A stretch of 46,482 bases of DNA from an uncultured Bacilli bacterium (GTDB lineage: Bacteria > Bacillota_I > Bacilli_A > RF39 > UBA660), in contig CALVON010000024.1 of NCBI GenBank assembly GCA_944350315.1, positions 1-46,482 on the forward strand, in the 5' to 3' direction. The notes beneath the pieces are model-generated. The model ran no database searches and was not told where the DNA came from. It worked only from the letters and a program-made list of their open reading frames with translations. Shown in pieces: positions 23,349 through 46,482 of this stretch. How positions within the stretch are numbered: the stretch's first letter is position 1; each line of letters starts with the position of its first letter. The position numbers were made by a program, and so were the translations under genes.

Positions 23349-23355
23349 AAATAAA

Positions 23356-23560
23356 GTTATGACATGGAAGTAGTAATCTTATAAAAAATATTTAAAGAGA
23401 GTTAGTGCTGGTGAAATGCTAATAATATTTGAAAGATGAATTCACCCATCGAGCTTTATCGCTAGATAGCGTTATTAATTTAAGAGTATAACATAAAAGT
23501 TATGAATAAAGGTGGTACCGCGAGTTTCTCGTCCTTTAATTTGTAGCTTTTTTATTTTTA
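23356..23560 (+). promoter_or_regulatory. T-box riboswitch leader of pheST (phenylalanine)
   Basis: The leader shows AGAGAGTTAGTG (23397-23408), a GGTG box (23410-23413), and specifier codon TTC (Phe) at 23441-23443 in a GAA-TTC-A context. The T-box core AAAGGTGGTACCGCG is at 23508-23522, followed by a CGAG-TTT-CTCG hairpin and a T run. The Phe specifier matches the downstream genes. Outer boundaries are approximate. Confidence 0.93.
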
Positions 23561-23575: not shown

Positions 23576-24625
23576 ATGAATAAGCAAGAAATTAAAAGTA
23601 TAAAAGATGAAATAGAAAAAATATTTAATCAGGAATTAAGTATGTCTAAATTAAATGATTTAAAAGTAGAGTATTTAGGTAAAAATGGTAAGATTACAGA
23701 ATTATCTAAGATGATGAAAGATGTATCTGCTGAAGATAAAAAAGAATATGGTTTATTATTAAACGAATTACGTAATGAATTTAATACTTTATTTGAAGAG
23801 TACAAAAATAAATTAGAAGAATCATTATTAAGTGAAAAATTACAGCAAGAAAAGATTGATATTAGTTTACCTGGAATACAGGTTCCTGTTGGTGCACCTA
23901 ATATTTTAGAACATGTAATTGAAGAAATAGAAGAGTTGTTTATGTCTATGGGTTATGATGTAGTAGATGGTCCTGAAATAGAAGAAGATAAATATAATTT
24001 TGAATTACTTAATATTCCAAAAGGACATCCAGCAAGAGATGCTCAAGATACTTTTTACATTGAAGATGAAAATATATTACTTAGAAGTCAAACTTCTCCT
24101 GTTCAAGTTAGAACTATGTTAAAGGGTAAAGGAGAAGTTCCAATAAGAATGATTTGTCCAGGAAAAACATATCGTAGAGATGATGATGATGCTACGCATT
24201 CACATCAATTTATGCAAATAGAGGGATTACTAGTTGATAAAAATATTAGTTTATGTGATTTAAAAGGGACTTTTGATACTGTTGCAAAAAAATTGTTTGG
24301 ACCAGATTGTGAAACTAGGTTTCGTCCAAGTTATTACCAATTTACTGAACCATCTGTAGAAACTGATATAAGTTGTTTTAACTGTCATGGTAAAGGATGT
24401 AGTATTTGTAAAAATACTGGTTGGATTACAGTATCAGGAGCTGGAATGGTGCATCCAAATGTTTTAAGAAATTGTGGTTATGATCCTAAAGTATGGAGTG
24501 GCTTTGCTTTTGGTTTTGGTGCTGAAAGATTAGCAATGCTAAAATATGGAATAAATGACATTAGGACTTTCTATATGACAGATTTACGTGAGGCAAAAGT
24601 ATTTGATAGAAAGGAAAGTGAATAA
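23576..24625 (+). CDS. pheS: Phenylalanyl-tRNA synthetase alpha subunit
   Basis: The 349-aa catalytic subunit has an N-terminal coiled coil (about 1-85) for tRNA binding and class II motif 2 (YRRDDDDATHSHQFMQIEG). Motif 3 is FGFGAERLAMLKYGINDIR. A Cys-rich insert CFNCHGKGCSIC is a likely zinc knuckle seen in some low-GC PheS. TAAGGAGGA precedes the start. It is cotranscribed with pheT under the Phe T-box. Confidence 0.97.
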   Translation: MNKQEIKSIKDEIEKIFNQELSMSKLNDLKVEYLGKNGKITELSKMMKDVSAEDKKEYGLLLNELRNEFNTLFEEYKNKLEESLLSEKLQQEKIDISLPGIQVPVGAPNILEHVIEEIEELFMSMGYDVVDGPEIEEDKYNFELLNIPKGHPARDAQDTFYIEDENILLRSQTSPVQVRTMLKGKGEVPIRMICPGKTYRRDDDDATHSHQFMQIEGLLVDKNISLCDLKGTFDTVAKKLFGPDCETRFRPSYYQFTEPSVETDISCFNCHGKGCSICKNTGWITVSGAGMVHPNVLRNCGYDPKVWSGFAFGFGAERLAMLKYGINDIRTFYMTDLREAKVFDRKESE

Positions 24626-36389: not shown

Positions 36390-36451
36390 CTATATATTTA
36401 TTTTAGAGGATATTTTTATATAAACAAACATATAATTTATTGGGTGATGAA

Positions 36452-36859
36452 GTGAAAAAAATATGTTTGTTTTTTATGTTGTTTTTGATGCCATTTAGCG
36501 TTTATGGAGAAGAAATCAATTTGGCAGAAAATGCAAAAAGTGCAATTTTGATAGAAGCATCTACTGGTGAAATTTTATATCAAAAAAATGCTAATGAAAG
36601 ATTAGCACCGGCATCGATGACAAAAATTATGTCTTTAATTTTAATTATGGAAAATATTGAAAAAGGTAATTTAGCTTGGAATGATATTGTGGTTGTTTCT
36701 AAAAATGCAGCATCGATGGGTGGAAGTCAAATTTTTCTTGAAACTAACGAGATGATGAGTGTTGAGGACTTAGTAAAAGGAATCTGTATTGCATCTGGAA
36801 ATGATGTGGTAGTGATAAAAAAGCAGTCGCAAGTTATAGGCGAAGAAATAACAATATAA
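36452..36859 (+). pseudogene. Truncated D-alanyl-D-alanine carboxypeptidase (DacF/PBP5 type)
   Basis: GTG 36452, with GGGTGA upstream, gives a signal peptide (MKKICLFFMLFLMPFSVYG) followed by the S11 peptidase N-terminus. The nucleophile motif is S55-M-T-K58 and the second motif S115-G-N117. After DVVV (about residue 121) the family sequence stops and an unrelated tail of about 14 residues (IKKQSQVIGEEITI) leads to TAA. The KTG motif and roughly 250 residues of the usual protein are missing, so the product cannot be a working carboxypeptidase. The missing 3' part is not found elsewhere in the window. The break coincides with the start of mobile-element type genes. Confidence 0.85.
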
Positions 36860-36907
36860 CTACTTTAAAACCTTATATTTTAGAATATTATTATAAGTTG
36901 TATATGT

Positions 36908-36930
36908 AAGCCAAGTAATTGGCTTTTTTA
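36908..36930 (+). terminator. Terminator at the element's left edge
   Basis: AAGCCAA (36908-36914) and TTGGCTT (36919-36925) form a 7-bp stem with a GTAA loop and a T run. It would shield the element genes from chromosomal read-through. Confidence 0.8.
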
Positions 36931-36946
36931 TTTGGGAGGTGTTATA

Positions 36947-37711
36947 ATGTCAGTTTTTAAAATAGAAAAAAGTAGAAATTATACTGTTATGAGTAATTAT
37001 CATTTAAGAGATAAAAATCTATCATATAAAGCAAAAGGATTATTATCTTTTATGCTTTCATTACCAGAAGATTGGGATTATTCCATTAATGGTCTTGTAT
37101 CTATTAGTAAAGAGGGAGTAAAAGCAATAAGAAATATTTTACAAGAATTGCAAAGATATGGATATTTAGTTATTGAGAAAAAACAAAACGAAGTAGGGCA
37201 ATTTGAATATGAATATTTAATATATGAGCAACCAGATACCCAAAAGGGAGATGTGGATTTAGGAGATGTGGAAAAGGACATACAAATAAATACTAATGAA
37301 ATAAATACTAATAACAAAATAGATAAAGATGATAAAACCAAAATATCATCTTTTTTTGTTGCAGAAGAACATAACATTCTTACTATGGAACTAATAAATA
37401 GGGGATATATAAATGAAAATGATATACAAATCTTCTATTATGATGATTTGTTTAAAGAATTGTTAAAAGATAATTCATACAAAGATTTAGTACAAATAAT
37501 TCATTATATTGTTCCAAGAGTAGTTAATAGACAATTTAAAGATGAAGATGGCAAATTTATTAAAAATAAATTTGGATATTTCAAAAATGCTATTATTGGT
37601 AATATTAATAGATTAAATGTTGAAATAGATGACTTATGGGAAAATAGAGATGATTTGCTAGATTTATATGATGACATTATAAGCAACGATAGTAATGATT
37701 TGGAAAGATAA
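36947..37711 (+). CDS. Helix-turn-helix replication protein of mobile-element type
   Basis: The 254-aa protein opens with SVFKIEKSRNYTVMSNYHLRD, KNLSYKAKGLLSFMLSLPEDWDYSINGL and a winged helix-turn-helix. This N-terminus is well known from replisome-organizer or initiator-like proteins of ICEs and phages in Bacillota (recollection). A hydrophilic linker DVEKDIQINTNEINTNNK follows, then a C-terminal domain with FIKNKFGYFKNAIIGNINRL, as in DnaD-like/DUF6017 proteins. GGGAGGTG precedes ATG 36947. It is the first gene inside the proposed element. Confidence 0.8.
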   Translation: MSVFKIEKSRNYTVMSNYHLRDKNLSYKAKGLLSFMLSLPEDWDYSINGLVSISKEGVKAIRNILQELQRYGYLVIEKKQNEVGQFEYEYLIYEQPDTQKGDVDLGDVEKDIQINTNEINTNNKIDKDDKTKISSFFVAEEHNILTMELINRGYINENDIQIFYYDDLFKELLKDNSYKDLVQIIHYIVPRVVNRQFKDEDGKFIKNKFGYFKNAIIGNINRLNVEIDDLWENRDDLLDLYDDIISNDSNDLER

Positions 37712-37750
37712 AGTATTTGTTTGAAATAGGTAGGGATTAGATAAAATCTA

Positions 37751-37759
37751 TGTTATAAT
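37751..37759 (+). promoter_or_regulatory. Extended -10 promoter before the 235-aa gene
   Basis: TGT followed by TATAAT (37754-37759), 47 bp ahead of the ATG at 37807; no good -35. Confidence 0.45.
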
Positions 37760-37806
37760 ATAATTGTATTTTTATATTTATTCTTGTAAGTTTTGGAAGT
37801 GATTTG

Positions 37807-38514
37807 ATGATAAATGAAAAAGGATTATATGGTACAATAAAATTAAATGGTGAATCTGTTTTTGTTCATAATTTATCTCAAGATAAAGAAAAATATTTGA
37901 AATTTCTTAATGGATTAAAAAGTGGAAAAATTACTAACTTTGATCAAACTACATTAACAAGATTAAGAAAATTATATTATGGTTTTTATTCTGCAATTAT
38001 ATATTTATATTATGAACCAACTGATTTTAATAATATAGGAAATAAAGTGGAATTATTGACACATGCATTAGAAGATAAAAAATTTCAAATAGTACATGGT
38101 AGTGTTGATTCTACTCGTAACATAAAGTTTTTTATGTATGGTGTTCAACATCTAGACTATAATTCTTGGATAGAAGTTGAAGAAGGTACGACAACTTGGG
38201 TATATGATTTATTTTCATTGCTGAAATTTGAAAAAAGTCTTTATTATGAATTAGAACATCCAACTGTGAGCAAAATAATACCAGGAGATGCGGTTTTAAA
38301 TCATCCAGGAAGGGATAATGAAGATTTTTCTACATTTCATGATGGTTTTGTAGAATTATTATTTAAACAAATGCCAATGATGGAAAAAAACATGGATAAG
38401 CATCCATTTAAAGATATTTTAGCACCTGAATTAACAAGATTTAAAACAGATATTAACTATGAAGATTTAAAATTAAGAATAAATGAAGAAAATAAAAAAT
38501 TTATTTCAAAATAA
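37807..38514 (+). CDS. Unknown protein, possibly a degenerate transglutaminase-like fold
   Basis: The 235-aa protein starts at ATG 37807 with GGAAG upstream. It is soluble, without a signal peptide. The stretch QHLDYNSWIEVEEG followed by TTWVYDLFS recalls the His and Asp region of transglutaminase-like cysteine peptidases (xHxWxEV...WxYD). His is replaced by Asn, and the protein contains no Cys at all, so it could not be an active member. The resemblance is weak and may be accidental. It sits between the replication protein and the LRR genes, convergent to the latter. Confidence 0.6.
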   Translation: MINEKGLYGTIKLNGESVFVHNLSQDKEKYLKFLNGLKSGKITNFDQTTLTRLRKLYYGFYSAIIYLYYEPTDFNNIGNKVELLTHALEDKKFQIVHGSVDSTRNIKFFMYGVQHLDYNSWIEVEEGTTTWVYDLFSLLKFEKSLYYELEHPTVSKIIPGDAVLNHPGRDNEDFSTFHDGFVELLFKQMPMMEKNMDKHPFKDILAPELTRFKTDINYEDLKLRINEENKKFISK

Positions 38515-38518
38515 AAAA

Positions 38519-38550
38519 GAAATCTTAAATTGCAAGATTTCCTTTTTTTT
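38519..38550. terminator. Bidirectional terminator between the 235-aa gene and the LRR genes
   Basis: GAAATCTT (38519-38526) pairs with AAGATTTC (38534-38541), flanked by A runs to the left and T runs to the right. It overlaps the last codon and stop of the convergent LRR gene. Confidence 0.85.
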
Positions 38551-41530
38551 GCCTTTTTAGGACTAATAATTGTTTGTTTTTAGCATCTCCATCATAAGTT
38601 CCTACACTTTGCCCACCAGCATAATATCCATAAGTAGAGTAGTTAGGAGTATCTAATATTCTTGTTTCTTCATTACCTAAATTGTATTTAATTACATTAC
38701 GGTATTCTCCAATTGAAACTATTGATATTGGTATTATATTATTTTTATTATACTCATCAACAAATCTGTTGACACCACGCATAAATGCTTCATATATTTC
38801 GTTTAAATCACTTCCAGAATGATATTTAGAATTTACTTCTGCTGTATTAAATACTGCATATCCTTGCTCTCTATTAACATAAATTGTCATTTTTGCAATT
38901 ATTTCTCCCTCAATATTTCTGATTACAAGATTTTGACAGTTATCTAAAATCATACTAGCTCTCATAATTCCTGCACCAGCACCTAAAATATGGGCACAAC
39001 AATTACAATATTTACCAAGTATCAAATTATCATAGTCTTGTTTAGGTAACCAATGATAAGAAAAACCATGTAAAATTTTTTCATATAAATCTTCATTTTC
39101 ATCATAAGAATAAATAGGATTTCCATCTTCATTGTAATTTATTTTACTAAATACATTTCTAGGGGCATCTTGACTTTGCTTTACAATCATTTCACCTATG
39201 CTTAAAGCATAAGATTCTGAATAGTAGGACTGTAATTTAGTTGCTAGATCTTTATTTTCTTCAGTTACACCTTCAAATTTTTTGGTTAAAAAATAATCTA
39301 GACATTTATCAAGTGTAACTTTTAGATGTCTTTGTGAACCTCTATGAGAAGTAGATGTTTTTGAAATATCTCTAAATGCGTTATATATTCGTGCAATTAT
39401 ACCAGAAGATTGCCTTTCTAATTCTACTAATTGATCATAGTTTTCAATAAATAATACAATAAATTCATAATCAATTTCATCTCTAGGTTTTATTTCTCCA
39501 AACATTGTATGAATATCATTTCCTACAATTCTATGTTCATTTTCCTTTCCATTTGGAAGTTTATTACTTAAAATCTTCTCGTTAATAAAAGTACTTAATC
39601 TTTGACTGATGACAGTGTCATCTGAAAAAACACCTAAAGCATTACAAAATGTAATCAAATCATTTAAATTATTTCCATAGCGATCACTTAATGTTTCACT
39701 ATTTTGAAGAATATGTTTAATATTTTTGTTAAAGTGCTTTATAAGTAATTCAGCATTTTTGTGGGATAATTTTTGAAAAAATATTGGATTATATAAAAAC
39801 TTATCATATTTTTTATACTTTTCTAATAATTTACAATATTCAATTAAATTATCTACATTTATAACTACATTGTCATAATCTTGATTTTCATCAATTCTAC
39901 ATAATCTAAAAAATCTACTTATTGAATTATTGTAGTTTTCTAATATTTTTTTAATGTCCTGTAGTCCCATTTTTTTCATCATCATTCCTGAAAATAAGAA
40001 TTCATCATAGATACCAGAATTATTGATTATTTCCCTAATTGCAGTTGATGTTTTATGTTCTGCAATATTTCTAACACAATTCATGTCATTTACAAATTTA
40101 CTAAATGTTTCTTCTAATCTTTTATCTGTCCATATTCCCATCATAATACTTGAAGATTCTCCGTTTATATGTAATAAATCACATAAATATTCAATAAATT
40201 TATCTGGATCGTCTTTCATAACAAATGAAGTATCAGACATTTTGATAATTTCATCTCTATTTACTTTTACAATATCATAATCATCGATTTTAACATAATA
40301 AGTTCCATCATTTAGTGCAAAAATTCTTATATTATCTTTATCATGTTGTTCAATATAATAATCATCACTTGTTTTTGTTTGAAGCATATTAAAGTCTATA
40401 CCTCTAACAATTCCAAAATCAGAAAAGTTTAATAATATATTATCTTCAAAGGTATTAGGATTAATCATTTTTATTCCTTTAGGAATATCTAGTTTGGTTA
40501 AATACTTTGATTTTGAAAAAACATTTTTACCAATATGTTCAAGTGTACTAGGTAATACAACTTCTTTAGCATTTTTAAATATATCAGACATATTTTCACA
40601 TAAAGTTGTAACACCTTCAGGTATTATTACTTTTTCAAAAGGTATGTCTGCCTCTTCTCTAAAACTTCCAAACATTGTAAACAGTAATGCTTTTCCATAT
40701 GAAGTATAGTAAACTTCCAATTCTTTCAAATTATCACAACCAGCAAAAGTTTTTGTTCCAATACTTTCGGTTTCAGAAGGTAAAAATATTTTATGCAATT
40801 TTTTAGCACCTGCAAAAGCATAATCTGCAATATTATATATCAATTGATAACTTTCAATGGGCTCGTGATTTTCGTCTTCACCGTAATTTTCAATATAGTA
40901 TCCTGAAGCAAATTCTTGGCGATCACAATTTATAGCATATTGTATTATAATGCCATCTTTTGATACCAATACCGTTCCATCATCTTCCGTAAAATATTTT
41001 TCATTATTTTCATCTACTGCTATTAATTCTAATGAGTCCATAAGTGCAAGTGCACCAACTTCAATAGTATCCAAATTAGCAGGTATATGTATTGCTTTTA
41101 TTTTTTTACATCCCATTAGTGCCATTTGTCCAAGACTTGTTACATTTGATGGAATATCAAAGTCTTCTAGAGATTCACAGTTATTTAATGCATATTCATC
41201 AATATAATTTATATTGTTGTGAATATTTAATCTTTTTAGTTTTTTACAATCTCTAAATACACCAGCAGATAAATATTTTAATGAAGAGGGGATAGTAATT
41301 TCCTCTAATGATTCGCATCCTGCAAAAGCATATGGTTCTAATAATCTTAAATTGTTTGGTAAATTTATTTTTCTTAATGATTTGCATCCTGCAAAAGAAA
41401 ACATATTAATTACTTCAATTGAATTTGGTAAAACAATTTCTTCAACATTTTCAAAATTTTTAAATTCTTCAATATCTATTTGTTTTGTTCCTTCAGGAAT
41501 GACTATTTTCTTTGCTGTTATATCATACAT
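38525..41530 (-). CDS. Giant cytosolic LRR protein A with C-terminal CNCCAH domain
   Basis: The 1001-aa protein has no signal peptide, membrane helix or anchor. Residues 1 to about 370 are BspA-type leucine-rich repeats (LRR_5) of about 23 residues, such as VLPNSIEVINMFSFAGCKSL. A helical middle part follows. A conserved region holds GNDIHTMF and SKTSTSHRGSQRHLKVTLDKC. The C-terminal domain (about 810-1001) has HWLPKQDYDNLILGKYCNCCAH with C842, C844, C845 and H847, then GIMRAS and GEIIAKMTIYVNREQGYAVFN. The last part has the strand-turn-strand and helix layout of a GNAT-like fold (inference). It follows gene B by 2 bp; its ribosome-binding site AAGGGGGA lies within the end of B, so the two are coupled. 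Confidence 0.85.
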   Translation of the reverse strand: MYDITAKKIVIPEGTKQIDIEEFKNFENVEEIVLPNSIEVINMFSFAGCKSLRKINLPNNLRLLEPYAFAGCESLEEITIPSSLKYLSAGVFRDCKKLKRLNIHNNINYIDEYALNNCESLEDFDIPSNVTSLGQMALMGCKKIKAIHIPANLDTIEVGALALMDSLELIAVDENNEKYFTEDDGTVLVSKDGIIIQYAINCDRQEFASGYYIENYGEDENHEPIESYQLIYNIADYAFAGAKKLHKIFLPSETESIGTKTFAGCDNLKELEVYYTSYGKALLFTMFGSFREEADIPFEKVIIPEGVTTLCENMSDIFKNAKEVVLPSTLEHIGKNVFSKSKYLTKLDIPKGIKMINPNTFEDNILLNFSDFGIVRGIDFNMLQTKTSDDYYIEQHDKDNIRIFALNDGTYYVKIDDYDIVKVNRDEIIKMSDTSFVMKDDPDKFIEYLCDLLHINGESSSIMMGIWTDKRLEETFSKFVNDMNCVRNIAEHKTSTAIREIINNSGIYDEFLFSGMMMKKMGLQDIKKILENYNNSISRFFRLCRIDENQDYDNVVINVDNLIEYCKLLEKYKKYDKFLYNPIFFQKLSHKNAELLIKHFNKNIKHILQNSETLSDRYGNNLNDLITFCNALGVFSDDTVISQRLSTFINEKILSNKLPNGKENEHRIVGNDIHTMFGEIKPRDEIDYEFIVLFIENYDQLVELERQSSGIIARIYNAFRDISKTSTSHRGSQRHLKVTLDKCLDYFLTKKFEGVTEENKDLATKLQSYYSESYALSIGEMIVKQSQDAPRNVFSKINYNEDGNPIYSYDENEDLYEKILHGFSYHWLPKQDYDNLILGKYCNCCAHILGAGAGIMRASMILDNCQNLVIRNIEGEIIAKMTIYVNREQGYAVFNTAEVNSKYHSGSDLNEIYEAFMRGVNRFVDEYNKNNIIPISIVSIGEYRNVIKYNLGNEETRILDTPNYSTYGYYAGGQSVGTYDGDAKNKQLLVLKRQKKGNLAI
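38928..39060 (-). repeat. Near-identical DNA segment, copy in LRR gene A
   Basis: Segments 38928-38972 (45 nt) and 38991-39060 (70 nt) are identical to 41921-41965 and 41984-42053 in gene B, although the surrounding parts of the two genes differ at many bases. It encodes the CNCCAH core. Confidence 0.85.
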
Positions 41531-41532
41531 AT

Positions 41533-44500
41533 TTATCTAGTCCCCCTTTTTAAAACTAACCTTTGTTTAGTTCCCCAATCTCCAGCATATCCTGAGCCAT
41601 TAAGAGAGTACTCTCCAAATTTAAGTGATTCTTGAACTGGTATTTCAGGATGATTATTTTGCTCAGTTAAATAACTTAGAATAGTATTTCTATTTGCTCC
41701 AATTGATATGTTGGTAATTGGGCTTTCAGGGTTATTTTTATTATAAGTTTTAACAAATGCCTTACTTCCTCTTAAAAATGCTTTATAAATCTTTAATAAA
41801 CTCTCGTCATCTCTATAATTAAATGAACTTTCTACATTATTAAATACTGCATATCCTTGTGCTTTATTAACATACAATGTAGATTTTGCAATTATTTCTC
41901 CAAAGTTATTTCTAATTACTAGATTTTGACAGTTATCTAAAATCATACTAGCTCTCATAATTCCTTGTCCAGCACCATCAACATGGGCACAACAATTACA
42001 ATATTTACCAAGTATCAAATTATCATAGTCTTGTTTAGGTAACCAATGATAAGAGAAATCAGAACTAACTTCTTCTTTTAAATCGTGTTCAGGATTCATA
42101 TCATATGTTATTTTATTTTCTTTATCAATTTCAACTTTGGTAAAAATGTTTCTAGGAGCATTTAAAGATTCATTATATATTCTTAGAGCATTTAGCCATG
42201 CTGAATTATTATCATACCATTGTCCGATTAAATCTGCTAATTCTTTACAATCTTCGGTAACACCATCAAATTTAACATTAGATAAATAATTTCTACATTT
42301 ATCCATTGTAACTTTTAATTTTCTTTGTGATCCTTTATTTGAAGTGCAAGTTTTTGAGATTTGTCTAAAATTCAAGTAAACTCTTTGAATAAATCCAGAT
42401 TTTCTTCTTTCTTCTTCAACTAATTCTTGATAATTTTCCAAAAAGAAATTTGCAAACTCTTGGTCAAATTCGTCCCTAGTATAAGGAAAATTGAATATTC
42501 TATGAATATCATCACCAATAATTCTATATTCATTTGATTTTCCATTTGGTAATTTTTCATCAAACATTTTTTCACTGATAAATGTTGATGCTCTTTGTCT
42601 AATTATTGCATCTTCTTCTAATGCACCTGTAATTTTCATTAATATTAATAAATCGCTAAGGTTTTGTACTGCAGATATGTTTGTATTTGTTACTTGACTT
42701 GCTTTTAATAACCTTTTTATATTTGCATCATATACTTTAATCATATCTTCAATTAGTGGATTTTTTGCGGTTGCAACGAAAGGTTTACTAAATAAGTATT
42801 TGTCTTGAATATTATATTTTTTTGCTAGTCTTATAAAATCTTGAAGTGTATTCTTTTGTAATATTTGATATGTCAAATAATAACTAGATCTCTCATCTTT
42901 TTTATTGTCATACAAGAGAGTAATACTATCACTTTCAAATAATCTACTATCAACTACAATTCTTTTGAATAGTTCTAAATCGAATTGTATTAATGACTCA
43001 AAATCATTTACATCTAAATTTGCCATAAAGAATTTATTATGTAATTCTGGATCAGTTATATTATATTTTCTTAATAGTTCTACATACTCAACAAATGTTG
43101 CAAAATTTTTGCCTTGTAATAAACTTTCTGTATTTTCATCTTTTTTATCTAATAAATGACTATTTCTTATAACATTCAAGAAGAAGTTATCATCTTTTCT
43201 TAAATTATCAAATAATATAGTTCTATTATCTAAACTCATTGTTGACATCAAAATACCGTTAAATAATTGTTTGATTGCTAAATCGTGTTTTATTAAATCA
43301 TTCATAAAATCTAGGAATAAAACAGGGTTTTCTCTGATAGATTCTGATTTAGAGCATATTTCATCTATTTGGTGTTTTGTAAGTTTAGTTATTTTATCTC
43401 CTTGTTCTATATAATATGTGCCATCATCTAAAACATATAATTTGTAATCTCCAATATATTCATTATTATGAATTAATTCAACAAATCCTTTTGGTTCTAA
43501 TCCATTTGAAAATTTTAATTTAGTATTAGGGTTAAAAGCACCTTTAGCAATTACATTAACTCCTTTTGGTATTATAACTTCTTCTAGTAAAGAACAATCT
43601 GAAAAAGCATTGGACATAATATCAAAAGTTTTATCCATAGGTAAATGTAGTTTTTTAACTCTTTTAAAGTTTTCTAGTGCATTTGGAAATATTGATACAG
43701 GATCTCCGCTAAAAGTAACTTCTTCAAAAGGCATAAATACTTTATGCTTTGAAAATTCATTGGTATAATATCGTCCACGATCTCTAGTATGAAATCCAGG
43801 ACAAGAAAATAATGAAATTGCTCGTACATCAAGTTTTTTAAGATTATCACATCCATAGAAAGCAGTAGATTCAATATCTTGAGTGCATCCACATATTGTT
43901 AATTCTTCTAAATGTTTAGCCCCAGCAAAAGCATATTCTCCAATAGTATTAATTGGTCTTATAAGCCCACGACCTAATTCATCATATTGAACATTATAAT
44001 CTTCAAGCGAATAAGATTTGTCTTCTATACCACAGGCATATAAAACAATTTTTTGTTGCATATCGTGAATTAAGATTTTATGATCAGTGGTAATAAAGGT
44101 TTTATTATATGGAGATACATTTATATTTTGTAATGAATCCATAAATGAAAAAGCAGCATCTCCAAAAGATTTTAGATTAGCAGGTATAGTAATTGATGTA
44201 ATACTATTACATTCTCTAAATGCCTCTTTTTTAATTGTTTCTATAGTATCTGGCAAATTAACATCGGTAAGATTATTACACTTGTAAAATGCTCTTGACT
44301 CAATAGTTCGTACACCAGTTCCTAATCTAACTTTTTTAAGTCTTTTACAATTGCTAAATGCTTCAGGAGGAATTGTTCCTAAATTGTATATATCAAATTC
44401 TTCAAGATTATCACAACCAGAAAATGCAAAAGCACCCATTGAATAAATTCTTTCTTGATTGCTAATTTCTTTTAAATTTTTACATCCTCTAAAACAAGCG

Positions 44501-45360
44501 TTAGGAACTTCTGTGCCAATAACATCAATACTAGTAATACCTGTACAATTTTCAAAAGCTCTTTCATTAAAATTGGCAACACATGAAGGTATTTCACTTA
44601 AACTTTTACAATTTCTAAAACATTTTTTTCCAATTTTAAGTTTTTTTGATGAATTAATATTTGTTAAATTTATACATCCATCAAACATTCCGTCAGAAAG
44701 AGTAGATGTTTGTTCATTTATATTTGCAGATGTAATACTTCTACAATTTCTAAAACAATTTTCACCAAAAGATTTAACATGGCTTGGAAATGATGATAAT
44801 TTAAAGCAATCTTCAAAGACTCTGTTACCAAGTTCTACGATTGTGTCATTTAGTATAATGTCTAGACTTGAACAGCCTTTAAAACATTCATCAGGTAATT
44901 GTTGTATTGTAGATGGAATGTTAACTTTTTTTAGTTTTTTACAATTTAGAAATAGTTGCTTATCTATTTTCTTTAATGATTCAGGTAAAACTACTTCTTC
45001 TAAATTATCACATCCAGCAAATATGCCCCAATCTAATTCTTCAACACCTTCAGGTATAACAATTCTTTTTAATCTTTTACAATCTCCAAAAGTTCTATAA
45101 TTTAATCTTTTTAGATTTTTTGGTAAAATAATTTCTTCAAGATTTTCACATTCGGAAAAAGCACTAGCACCAATAAATTCTAAACTTTCAGGTAGTGTTA
45201 TTCTTTTTAAATTTTTACATTTAGCAAAAGCTCTTTCTCCAATTGATTTTATACCATTTGGAATTACAATATCAGTAATATCGTCACGATTTATAAAAGC
45301 ATAATTACTAATAGCAGTTTGAATTTTTGCATTAGGAATAATCGGTTTATTTTCCCCCAT
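41533..45360 (-). CDS. Giant cytosolic LRR protein B with C-terminal CNCCAH domain
   Basis: The 1275-aa paralogue of LRR protein A has a longer repeat array: about 640 residues of BspA-type repeats (for example LPESLEFIGASAFSECENL), many with a Cys just before the Leu strand. A helical middle follows, then the shared region (GDDIHRIF, SKTCTSNKGSQRKLKVTMDKC) and the C-terminal domain with C1121, C1123, C1124 and H1126. There is no signal peptide, unlike surface BspA proteins, so it is expected in the cytoplasm. The start at 45360 follows AAGGGGGA; a longer in-frame start at 45429 would cross its own promoter. It is transcribed first, ahead of gene A. Confidence 0.87.
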   Translation of the reverse strand: MGENKPIIPNAKIQTAISNYAFINRDDITDIVIPNGIKSIGERAFAKCKNLKRITLPESLEFIGASAFSECENLEEIILPKNLKRLNYRTFGDCKRLKRIVIPEGVEELDWGIFAGCDNLEEVVLPESLKKIDKQLFLNCKKLKKVNIPSTIQQLPDECFKGCSSLDIILNDTIVELGNRVFEDCFKLSSFPSHVKSFGENCFRNCRSITSANINEQTSTLSDGMFDGCINLTNINSSKKLKIGKKCFRNCKSLSEIPSCVANFNERAFENCTGITSIDVIGTEVPNACFRGCKNLKEISNQERIYSMGAFAFSGCDNLEEFDIYNLGTIPPEAFSNCKRLKKVRLGTGVRTIESRAFYKCNNLTDVNLPDTIETIKKEAFRECNSITSITIPANLKSFGDAAFSFMDSLQNINVSPYNKTFITTDHKILIHDMQQKIVLYACGIEDKSYSLEDYNVQYDELGRGLIRPINTIGEYAFAGAKHLEELTICGCTQDIESTAFYGCDNLKKLDVRAISLFSCPGFHTRDRGRYYTNEFSKHKVFMPFEEVTFSGDPVSIFPNALENFKRVKKLHLPMDKTFDIMSNAFSDCSLLEEVIIPKGVNVIAKGAFNPNTKLKFSNGLEPKGFVELIHNNEYIGDYKLYVLDDGTYYIEQGDKITKLTKHQIDEICSKSESIRENPVLFLDFMNDLIKHDLAIKQLFNGILMSTMSLDNRTILFDNLRKDDNFFLNVIRNSHLLDKKDENTESLLQGKNFATFVEYVELLRKYNITDPELHNKFFMANLDVNDFESLIQFDLELFKRIVVDSRLFESDSITLLYDNKKDERSSYYLTYQILQKNTLQDFIRLAKKYNIQDKYLFSKPFVATAKNPLIEDMIKVYDANIKRLLKASQVTNTNISAVQNLSDLLILMKITGALEEDAIIRQRASTFISEKMFDEKLPNGKSNEYRIIGDDIHRIFNFPYTRDEFDQEFANFFLENYQELVEEERRKSGFIQRVYLNFRQISKTCTSNKGSQRKLKVTMDKCRNYLSNVKFDGVTEDCKELADLIGQWYDNNSAWLNALRIYNESLNAPRNIFTKVEIDKENKITYDMNPEHDLKEEVSSDFSYHWLPKQDYDNLILGKYCNCCAHVDGAGQGIMRASMILDNCQNLVIRNNFGEIIAKSTLYVNKAQGYAVFNNVESSFNYRDDESLLKIYKAFLRGSKAFVKTYNKNNPESPITNISIGANRNTILSYLTEQNNHPEIPVQESLKFGEYSLNGSGYAGDWGTKQRLVLKRGTR
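41921..42053 (-). repeat. Near-identical DNA segment, copy in LRR gene B
   Basis: Partner of 38928-39060. Of 133 positions, the 45-nt and 70-nt blocks are identical and differences are confined to the 18 nt between them. Confidence 0.85.
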
Positions 45361-45372
45361 AAAAAATCCCCC

Positions 45373-45416
45373 TTTTTCGTAGTTAGTTATTATATCACTT
45401 TTTACGAAAAAATCAA
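45373..45416 (-). promoter_or_regulatory. Promoter of the LRR pair with a flanking inverted repeat
   Basis: On the minus strand TTGATT (45416-45411), a 16-bp spacer and perfect TATAAT (45394-45389). A 9-bp inverted repeat, TTTTTCGTA at 45373-45381 and TACGAAAAA at 45403-45411, brackets the -10 and could be an operator. Confidence 0.65.
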
Positions 45417-45435
45417 TGAAATCAGACATATTTTC

Positions 45436-45464
45436 TTGTAAAAATCAAGCAATTATGTTATTAT
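45436..45464 (+). promoter_or_regulatory. Promoter of the two-repeat protein
   Basis: TTGTAA (45436-45441), a 17-bp spacer and TATTAT (45459-45464), divergent from the LRR promoter with 20 bp between the two -35 boxes. Confidence 0.65.
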
Positions 45465-45490
45465 AGTTAGCCGACAGGGGAGGTTTTTAT

Positions 45491-46279
45491 ATGGATATTG
45501 AAGCAAAAATAGAAAATCCTGTATGTATAAGACTTGGCGATACTGAAAATGTGATACTAGCAGACGAAGTAAATAAACAAAGTAATCCTCTTGTACCAGG
45601 AGTAATGTTTGGTGGTAATCATTATGGGTTTGTGCTAATCACAGACATAAATGGTAAACAAAAAGAAATGGTATATCCAACTCAATGTAGGATTGATGCA
45701 GTTGGCATTGAAGGAGGTACTTTAAAAATCTTTGAAGAAGGGAAAAAAACTTCTTGGAGATTTAGTAAGTCTGGAAAATTAGAACACTCTATATTTGGAG
45801 AATTTACTGATGAATATAGGAGTAGATTTAATACAATAGTAGAACATTATGATATGTTTATGGGAGAACCTGTTTTTAAAAATCCACTATGTGTTAAAAT
45901 TGCAAGAAATCCAGAGCAAAGTGTAATTTTAAAAGATGAACTTGTTCAACAAGATTATCCTTTACACCCAGGTGTAATGTTAGGAACAGAACATTATGGT
46001 TTTATCTTAATAATTGATACTGATAAAGGACAAAAAGAAGTTTATTATCCTACTCAAAATAGAGTGGATGCAATTGGTATTGAGGGTGATGAACTTGGAG
46101 ATTTAAAGGTTTTTGAAAATGGGAAATATCATCCTTGGCTTTTCTCTTATGACGGTAAATTTAAACAAGAAGCATCATATAATCCTTATTCAAGAAGGGA
46201 TAAAGCATTTGTTGAAGATGTATATGGATTAAATATGGAAGATGCAGCAGATCGTTTTACTTTGAAAATGAAAAAATAA
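45491..46279 (+). CDS. Unknown protein made of two internal repeats
   Basis: The 262-aa protein is soluble with no signal peptide. Residues 9-92 and 131-220 are clear copies of one domain: NP-[VL]-C, VIL-x-DE, PGVM-x-G, HYGF-x-LI, QKE, YPTQ-x-R-x-DA-x-GIEG, and an ending with W-x-FS. I do not recognise the domain. GGGGAGG precedes the start. It is divergent from the LRR pair and shares a short regulatory region with it, and may function with it. Confidence 0.8.
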   Translation: MDIEAKIENPVCIRLGDTENVILADEVNKQSNPLVPGVMFGGNHYGFVLITDINGKQKEMVYPTQCRIDAVGIEGGTLKIFEEGKKTSWRFSKSGKLEHSIFGEFTDEYRSRFNTIVEHYDMFMGEPVFKNPLCVKIARNPEQSVILKDELVQQDYPLHPGVMLGTEHYGFILIIDTDKGQKEVYYPTQNRVDAIGIEGDELGDLKVFENGKYHPWLFSYDGKFKQEASYNPYSRRDKAFVEDVYGLNMEDAADRFTLKMKK

Positions 46280-46292
46280 TAAGTGGTGTTAT

Positions 46293-46482
46293 ATGCGATT
46301 TTGGAAATTTATAAAGGATGAGTTTAACAGAATTCAAAACCAACAAGAATCACAAAATAGTAACTCACAAGATAGTGAAGAACAAGATATGAGTAATAGT
46401 TCATCACAACAAAGTGAAACCCAAGAACAATCAAGTCAATCACAAAGTGATAGTTCTGAACAAAGCCAAGAAACTTCTCAAC
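46293..46482 (+). CDS. Ser/Gln/Glu-rich protein, 3' end outside window
   Basis: ATG 46293, with AAGTGGTG upstream, is 13 bp after the previous stop. The 63 visible residues begin MRFWKFIKDEFNRIQNQQES and continue as low-complexity Ser, Gln and Glu with no stop to the edge. The composition suggests a disordered linker ahead of a domain outside the window. It is probably cotranscribed with the two-repeat gene. Confidence 0.65.
   Translation, partial: MRFWKFIKDEFNRIQNQQESQNSNSQDSEEQDMSNSSSQQSETQEQSSQSQSDSSEQSQETSQ

Follow-up and report, generated by a model that had tools for sequence, protein, structure and literature searches.

A tandem pair of leucine-rich repeat proteins with a predicted GNAT-fold domain opposite a MoxR-VWA-ankyrin operon in uncultured gut Bacilli

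Leucine-rich repeats (LRRs) of the BspA type usually belong to surface proteins. Two long adjacent genes near the end of a contig from an uncultured Bacilli bacterium (CALVON010000024.1; the whole analysed stretch of 46,482 nucleotides is called the window hereafter) combine such repeats with a conserved C-terminal domain, and a preliminary description of the sequence regarded their products as cytosolic sensor-effector proteins, possibly serving immunity and carried by a mobile element. The locus thus raises the question of what LRR proteins of this kind do inside a bacterial cell and in which genomic setting they are maintained.

Both genes are located on the reverse strand and encode proteins composed of LRRs, a middle region and a predicted GNAT-fold domain. 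Gene B is the first of the pair (41533-45360; 1275 aa) and is followed after 2 bp by gene A (38525-41530; 1001 aa), each with a Shine-Dalgarno (SD) sequence of its own. Stop-free stretches reached at most 163 aa when the region was base-shuffled 200 times, which excludes a chance origin of the two open reading frames. The frame of gene B is open up to 45429 (1298 aa), and this longer start was dropped in favour of the ATG at 45360 based on three observations, namely the SD sequence AAAAGGGGGATTTTTTATGGGGG upstream of the ATG, the position of the -10 box of the likely promoter, which ends at 45389 and would thus follow the longer start, and the orthologue in locus L086, which starts at the same place as 45360. 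The candidate promoter of the B-A operon (45389-45416, reverse strand; TTGATT-16-TATAAT with a TG before the -10 box) represents a consensus match only. Reading frames, SD sequences and start evidence confirm the two adjacent coupled genes of the preliminary description; the pair is real, conserved and under purifying selection. The BspA-type (LRR_5) repeats extend over 40211-41515 in gene A (reverse strand; approximately residues 6-440; Pfam PF13306, E=7.2e-65) and over approximately 43330-45318 in gene B (reverse strand; six stretches, PF13306, E=7.7e-109).

The domain common to both proteins comprises about 295 aa that are 53% identical between A (38543-39430, reverse strand; residues 701-996) and B (41536-42423, reverse strand). 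The C-terminal motifs listed in the preliminary description were all found where expected, here numbered as A/B with the B positions counted from the 45429 start: GSQR 731/1033, LKVT 736/1038, APRN 789/1091, CNCCAH 842/1144, GIMRAS 854/1156, GEIIAK 875/1177 and GYAVFN 890/1192. The CNCCAH motif is encoded at 38990-39007 in gene A (residues 842-847) and at 41983-42000 in gene B, both on the reverse strand. No family match of the domain was obtained in Pfam, PHROGs, NCBIfam, PADLOC or the PDB sequences. Its AlphaFold model (pLDDT 93.3, pTM 0.88) displays the strand and helix order b-a-a-b-b-b-a-b-a-b, which is that of GNATs, and the best 50 PDB matches of a fold search are all GNATs or GNAT-type enzymes, nearly all of them so named (prob 0.98-1.00, best E 2e-5). 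The Foldseek TM-scores are modest (0.24-0.36 by query), thus indicating that the fold is divergent. The modelled structure allows us to assign the domain to the GNAT fold with high confidence, and the earlier guess of an acetyltransferase-like fold is supported by structure prediction and fold search alike.

The resemblance to GNATs such as GCN5/PCAF, RimI, PaiA and SpeG comprises the predicted fold, the strand order and a glutamate (E898) at the predicted end of strand b4, where GNATs often place their general base. The domain differs from them in the absence of the P-loop motif after b4, an invariant Cys-Cys dyad and the lack of any PDB or Pfam sequence match. The pyrophosphate-binding acyl-CoA P-loop [QR]xxGx[GA] is not a feature of the 172 relatives scanned after b4, the pattern being present in only five of them and at scattered positions. 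Judged by its sequence, the domain is therefore not classed as a classical acetyl-CoA GNAT. G139, C144, C145, E198 and G241 (839, 844, 845, 898 and 941 in gene A numbering) are invariant in 49 diverse domains, and Q987 (gene A numbering) is near-invariant (47 of 49). The Cys cluster noticed at the outset is likewise conserved, since the CC dyad, which lies between the first two helices of the predicted fold, is kept in 170 of 184 relatives.

The domain is distributed patchily. More than 180 relatives were found in Bacilli and Clostridia MAGs, whose carriers are gut bacteria with tiny genomes, and a scan of genome contigs yielded 59 loci in these two classes, including Candidatus Onthoplasma faecigallinarum. 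Members of the wider superfamily are present in 94 of 386 genomes of the same bacterial family, whereas a phylum-wide sample gave a match in 7 of 392 genomes, six of the seven in this very family. The family also harbors a branch without LRRs (1200-1870 aa) that is characterized by the motif TDCCQ...SWVWRN..CFDNIE. Viral relatives were not found by scans of IMG/VR with the LRR-type and TDCCQ-type alignments or by a first phage search; a cyanophage query and a DNA pattern for CCQ...GAGE brought them to light in IMG/VR. ORF68L of Microcystis phage MaMV-DC (AGR48633.1) matches the domain with an hhalign probability of 98.5% (E 3e-15); it shares the CCQ..GAGE, IIAQSW and DN.E motifs but has no LRRs and a different N-terminus. 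Viral relatives, annotated as hypothetical and with cyanophages among them, are located in L205 (1549-3642), L206-L211, L213, L216, L222 and L227, and the motif common to the viral proteins reads CCQ...GAGE...QSW/QSY...DN.E. In BFVD, a phage protein of 656 aa gave the best structural match (E 1e-11). A fold-level match in the same database concerns PcfJ-like proteins (PF14284, e.g. of Enterococcus phage EFDG1; E 2.5e-4), and one short hhalign match places a PcfJ cysteine on the CC site. PcfJ membership was rejected by profile comparison, because the hhalign probabilities are 0.1% and 0.2%, PF14284 was not matched and none was present in 61 genomes. A recurrent domain with a near-invariant Cys-Cys/Glu/Gln set and a confidently predicted GNAT fold is thus shared by more than 180 bacterial genes and by phages without having an entry in the family libraries searched.

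The pair adjoins a conserved set of chaperone genes, which hints at a recognition and modification system not described so far. A divergent operon on the forward strand begins with a candidate promoter (45436-45464; TTGTAA-17-TATTAT, a consensus match only), followed by a gene designated DUF2 (45491-46279), whose 262 aa product consists of two similar halves and matches no known family, and by the first 63 codons of a gene for a VWA protein with an acidic/serine-rich N-terminus (46293-46482), which is cut by the window edge. Most of the related Bacilli loci likewise have DUF2 upstream of their pair. The conspecific contig L146, whose DNA is 99% identical over 36539-46482 of the window, continues past this edge. 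There the DUF2 gene is followed by one for a protein of 685 aa, whose serine/acidic N-terminus precedes a VWA domain with the MIDAS-like motif DxSGSMS, and then by one for a MoxR-type AAA+ ATPase; the window species accordingly has MoxR just beyond the window edge. The VWA assignment is based on DxSGSMS together with a model of low confidence (pLDDT 45.8), whose weak fold matches include the NorQD complex and TFIIH p34. Tandem repeats of 129 bp encode the serine/acidic N-terminus (window 46365-46482, L146 2304-2949) and probably explain why the contig of the window ends there. On the other side of the pair, the convergent gene P236 (37804-38514, forward strand; 236 aa, no family) adjoins gene A in many relatives.

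This arrangement is not restricted to a single species. A VWA or DUF2 gene, called by phmmer, the DxSGSMS motif or the common VWA N-terminus, faces the pair in all 19 Bacilli loci with a readable upstream side, and VWA-MoxR-ankyrin represents a recurrent operon. The domain profile search and tabulation of neighbours proposed in the preliminary description hence place the pair opposite a MoxR-VWA-ankyrin operon that lies partly beyond the window edge. Among the 386 family genomes, 10 hold this LRR-GNAT clade and 8 of them also have MoxR, compared with 11 of the remaining 376. MoxR-VWA genes were not found within the fetched flanks of the Clostridia LRR-GNAT genes, and several genomes harbor VWA-MoxR-ankyrin without adjacent LRR-GNAT genes, which documents that the two modules can part. 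In L253 (295-4910), the genes after a divergent VWA-MoxR pair encode LRR/ankyrin-like proteins that lack the Cys-Cys domain.

In other systems, MoxR/VWA pairs are dedicated to particular clients, which they remodel or mature (PMC9976466, PMC3893208). The locus shares with NorQ/NorD, RavA/ViaA and CbbQ/CbbO a MoxR-type ATPase adjoining a VWA protein; it differs from them in its putative LRR-GNAT clients and in the long, acidic/serine-rich VWA N-terminus with 129-bp repeats. None of the papers searched describes a MoxR-VWA module that has LRR-GNAT partners. MoxR-VWA modules as such are known; the LRR-GNAT partners and their domain are new to the family libraries searched. By analogy with NorD/NorQ and ViaA/RavA, the VWA protein and the MoxR AAA+ ATPase would act on the LRR-GNAT proteins by assembling, remodelling or activating them, with the ankyrin-repeat proteins as further adaptors. 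The reading that we tentatively favour, at somewhat less than an even chance, is that cytosolic LRR recognition is combined with a GNAT-fold, cysteine-dependent transferase that MoxR-VWA assembles or activates. The LRRs and the middle region would select the protein partner or target, onto which the C-terminal domain, devoid of the acyl-CoA P-loop and equipped with the Cys-Cys/Glu set, would move an acyl-like group. From the loss of the P-loop in conjunction with the invariant Cys-Cys/Glu we infer that such a transfer is probable rather than a classical use of acetyl-CoA; the transferred group might be aminoacyl, or acyl held on a cysteine. The LRR fusion coupled to MoxR-VWA-ankyrin would make uncultured gut bacteria a testable case of client-specific MoxR function, and possibly a bacterial counterpart of intracellular recognition by LRRs. 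A more far-reaching version, possible but in our view unlikely, extends these sequence patterns to a whole superfamily of P-loop-less, Cys-Cys-dependent GNAT-fold transferases in gut Bacilli, Clostridia and phages, which one bacterial lineage would have joined to LRRs and brought under a MoxR-VWA-ankyrin machine. If true, this would represent a prokaryotic LRR-receptor system that labels its targets by a thiol-based chemistry that GNATs are not known to use.

A defence or conflict function, in which the LRRs (and ankyrin repeats) sense a component of a phage or other invader, MoxR-VWA licenses the response and a cellular target is then modified or poisoned by the GNAT-fold domain, is a serious alternative that we consider rather unlikely. 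It draws on the MoxR-vWA-VMAP ternary systems, which are predicted conflict systems (PMC7159879, Kaur et al. 2020) and have a MoxR and VWA core with a multi-domain third partner in common with our locus, where MoxR AAA+ and VWA genes are adjacent (MoxR identified by Pfam AAA_5, 1.2e-5, and VWA by its motif with weak evidence from the fold). The gene order VWA-MoxR-ankyrin plus divergent LRR-GNAT differs from VMAP-MoxR-vWA and no VMAP family hit at E<=1 was found in Pfam, so that VMAP membership was rejected. The patchy presence of the superfamily within its bacterial family and the occurrence of the module in different chromosomal surroundings in different species would suit a defence system, but PADLOC gave no match for any member, Pfam revealed neither VMAP nor another known conflict domain, and the neighbours are housekeeping genes. 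NACHT, NB-ARC or other NTPase domains of NLR/STAND-type receptors were likewise not found by Pfam in A or B. In Clostridia MAGs (L172-L176, L180 and L193), up to 5-6 LRR-GNAT paralogues that differ in their number of LRRs are arranged in tandem; they have been counted in favour of defence and would suit a physiological role equally well. A small coiled-coil-like protein of 81-90 aa is often found beside the Clostridia genes (L199 3598-3843, L204, L200, L201, L202, L197 and others).

The LRRs of the Bacilli pair hardly vary in length and evolve under purifying selection, which would not be expected of an arms-race sensor. The position-1 (B) proteins form a clade of 23 rows (SH-aLRT 94) and the position-2 (A) proteins a clade of 17 rows (SH-aLRT 96). 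The separation of A and B orthologues is indicative of an old duplication that has been kept in a fixed B-then-A order, although some lineages depart from it, for instance L164, whose two copies both belong to the B clade. The dN/dS ratios range from 0.08 to 0.57 over all three regions and are on average lowest in the C-terminal domain; diversifying selection on the LRRs was not found, and dN/dS places them under purifying selection. The proposal of LRRs of differing length holds for the comparison of A with B but not among orthologues, whose lengths are nearly constant (984-1015 aa in most A, mostly 1200-1310 aa in B). Constraint of this kind on the LRR speaks for a stable partner in the Bacilli, and the immunity function suggested earlier has neither a PADLOC hit nor diversifying selection on its side.

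The GNAT fold could also serve as a non-catalytic scaffold or peptide-binding module and the proteins as structural adaptors. We regard this as improbable: the canonical acyl-CoA P-loop is missing, as a scaffold would allow, but even very divergent bacterial members keep CC, Glu, Gly and Gln with no or almost no variation, CC and Glu are also present in the phage relatives, and such a pattern is typical of an active site. The scaffold reading further appeals to the non-LRR relatives, which accompany a degenerate ProA-like protein. A ProA-like gene adjoins or is near a superfamily member in 16 loci, 15 of them with non-LRR proteins, and the one ProA-like protein that was aligned matches gamma-glutamyl phosphate reductase with an Asp at the site of the catalytic Cys. 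The degenerate homologues of about 340 aa are found, among others, in L050 (4844-5866), L103 (8768-9790) and L098 (5911-6948).

A role in metal or cofactor maturation, with MoxR-VWA inserting a metal into C-x-C-C-x-H and the LRR-GNAT proteins acting as metalloenzymes, appears about equally improbable. MoxR/VWA pairs such as NorQD do insert metal (PMC9976466, PMC13036017) and C-x-C-C-x-H is retained in nearly all members of the two LRR clades, but the second LRR clade and the non-LRR superfamily lack the outer Cys and the His and retain CC alone, and the Clostridia clade maintains C-x-C-C-x-H without MoxR-VWA in the fetched flanks.

It is very unlikely that the proteins are BspA-like surface or host-directed proteins leaving the cell by a non-classical route. 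The usual location of BspA-type LRRs and the gut association of the organisms would be in line with this view, and Pfam detects LRR_5 repeats in both A and B. Neither protein has an export signal, a cell-wall anchor or LPxTG, an N-terminal hydrophobic segment is missing from 166 of 167 complete relatives, the start of the single exception being possibly over-extended, and the repeats are fused to a Cys-rich GNAT-fold domain coupled to a cytosolic MoxR-type ATPase. The cytosolic location claimed in the preliminary description, which a signal peptide in close relatives would have contradicted, is thereby borne out.

That the pair is cargo of a mobile element, as originally framed, is hardly credible. 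In its favour are a replication-initiator-like HTH_36 protein close to the pair in four related loci and the restriction of the similarity with L146 to 36539-46482. Against it, most loci that carry the module have no HTH_36, the Pfam families listed for the window and for 70 flank proteins include no integrase, transposase or relaxase, and the LRR-type domain was found neither in plasmids nor in IMG/VR. The window is ordinary chromosome with thrS, a T2SSE/T2SSF cluster, ruvB, pheT and rpsL-rpsG-fusA-tuf, and the flanks in relatives encode aminoacyl-tRNA synthetases, IF-2, NusA and FtsK. Phage structural genes are equally absent from the listed Pfam families of window and flanks, the alignment scan referring to its 25 most frequent families; a recurrence of the pair beside integrases or relaxases is not seen among them, and the phage link of the domain consists of remote relatives in cyanophages only. 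The flanks differ between species, which suggests that the module has moved over time with no vehicle visible. The HTH_36 protein itself (36932-37711; PHROG 4707, E 1.6e-25) is adjacent to the module in the four close loci only. The homology with L146 ends at 36539 inside a short S11-peptidase ORF (36440-36859), which reflects either a genuine rearrangement or chimeric assembly of one of these two contigs. A T-box leader (Rfam RF00230) is located at 23350-23539, upstream of the gene at 23576-24625 and the gene for the phenylalanyl-tRNA synthetase beta subunit.
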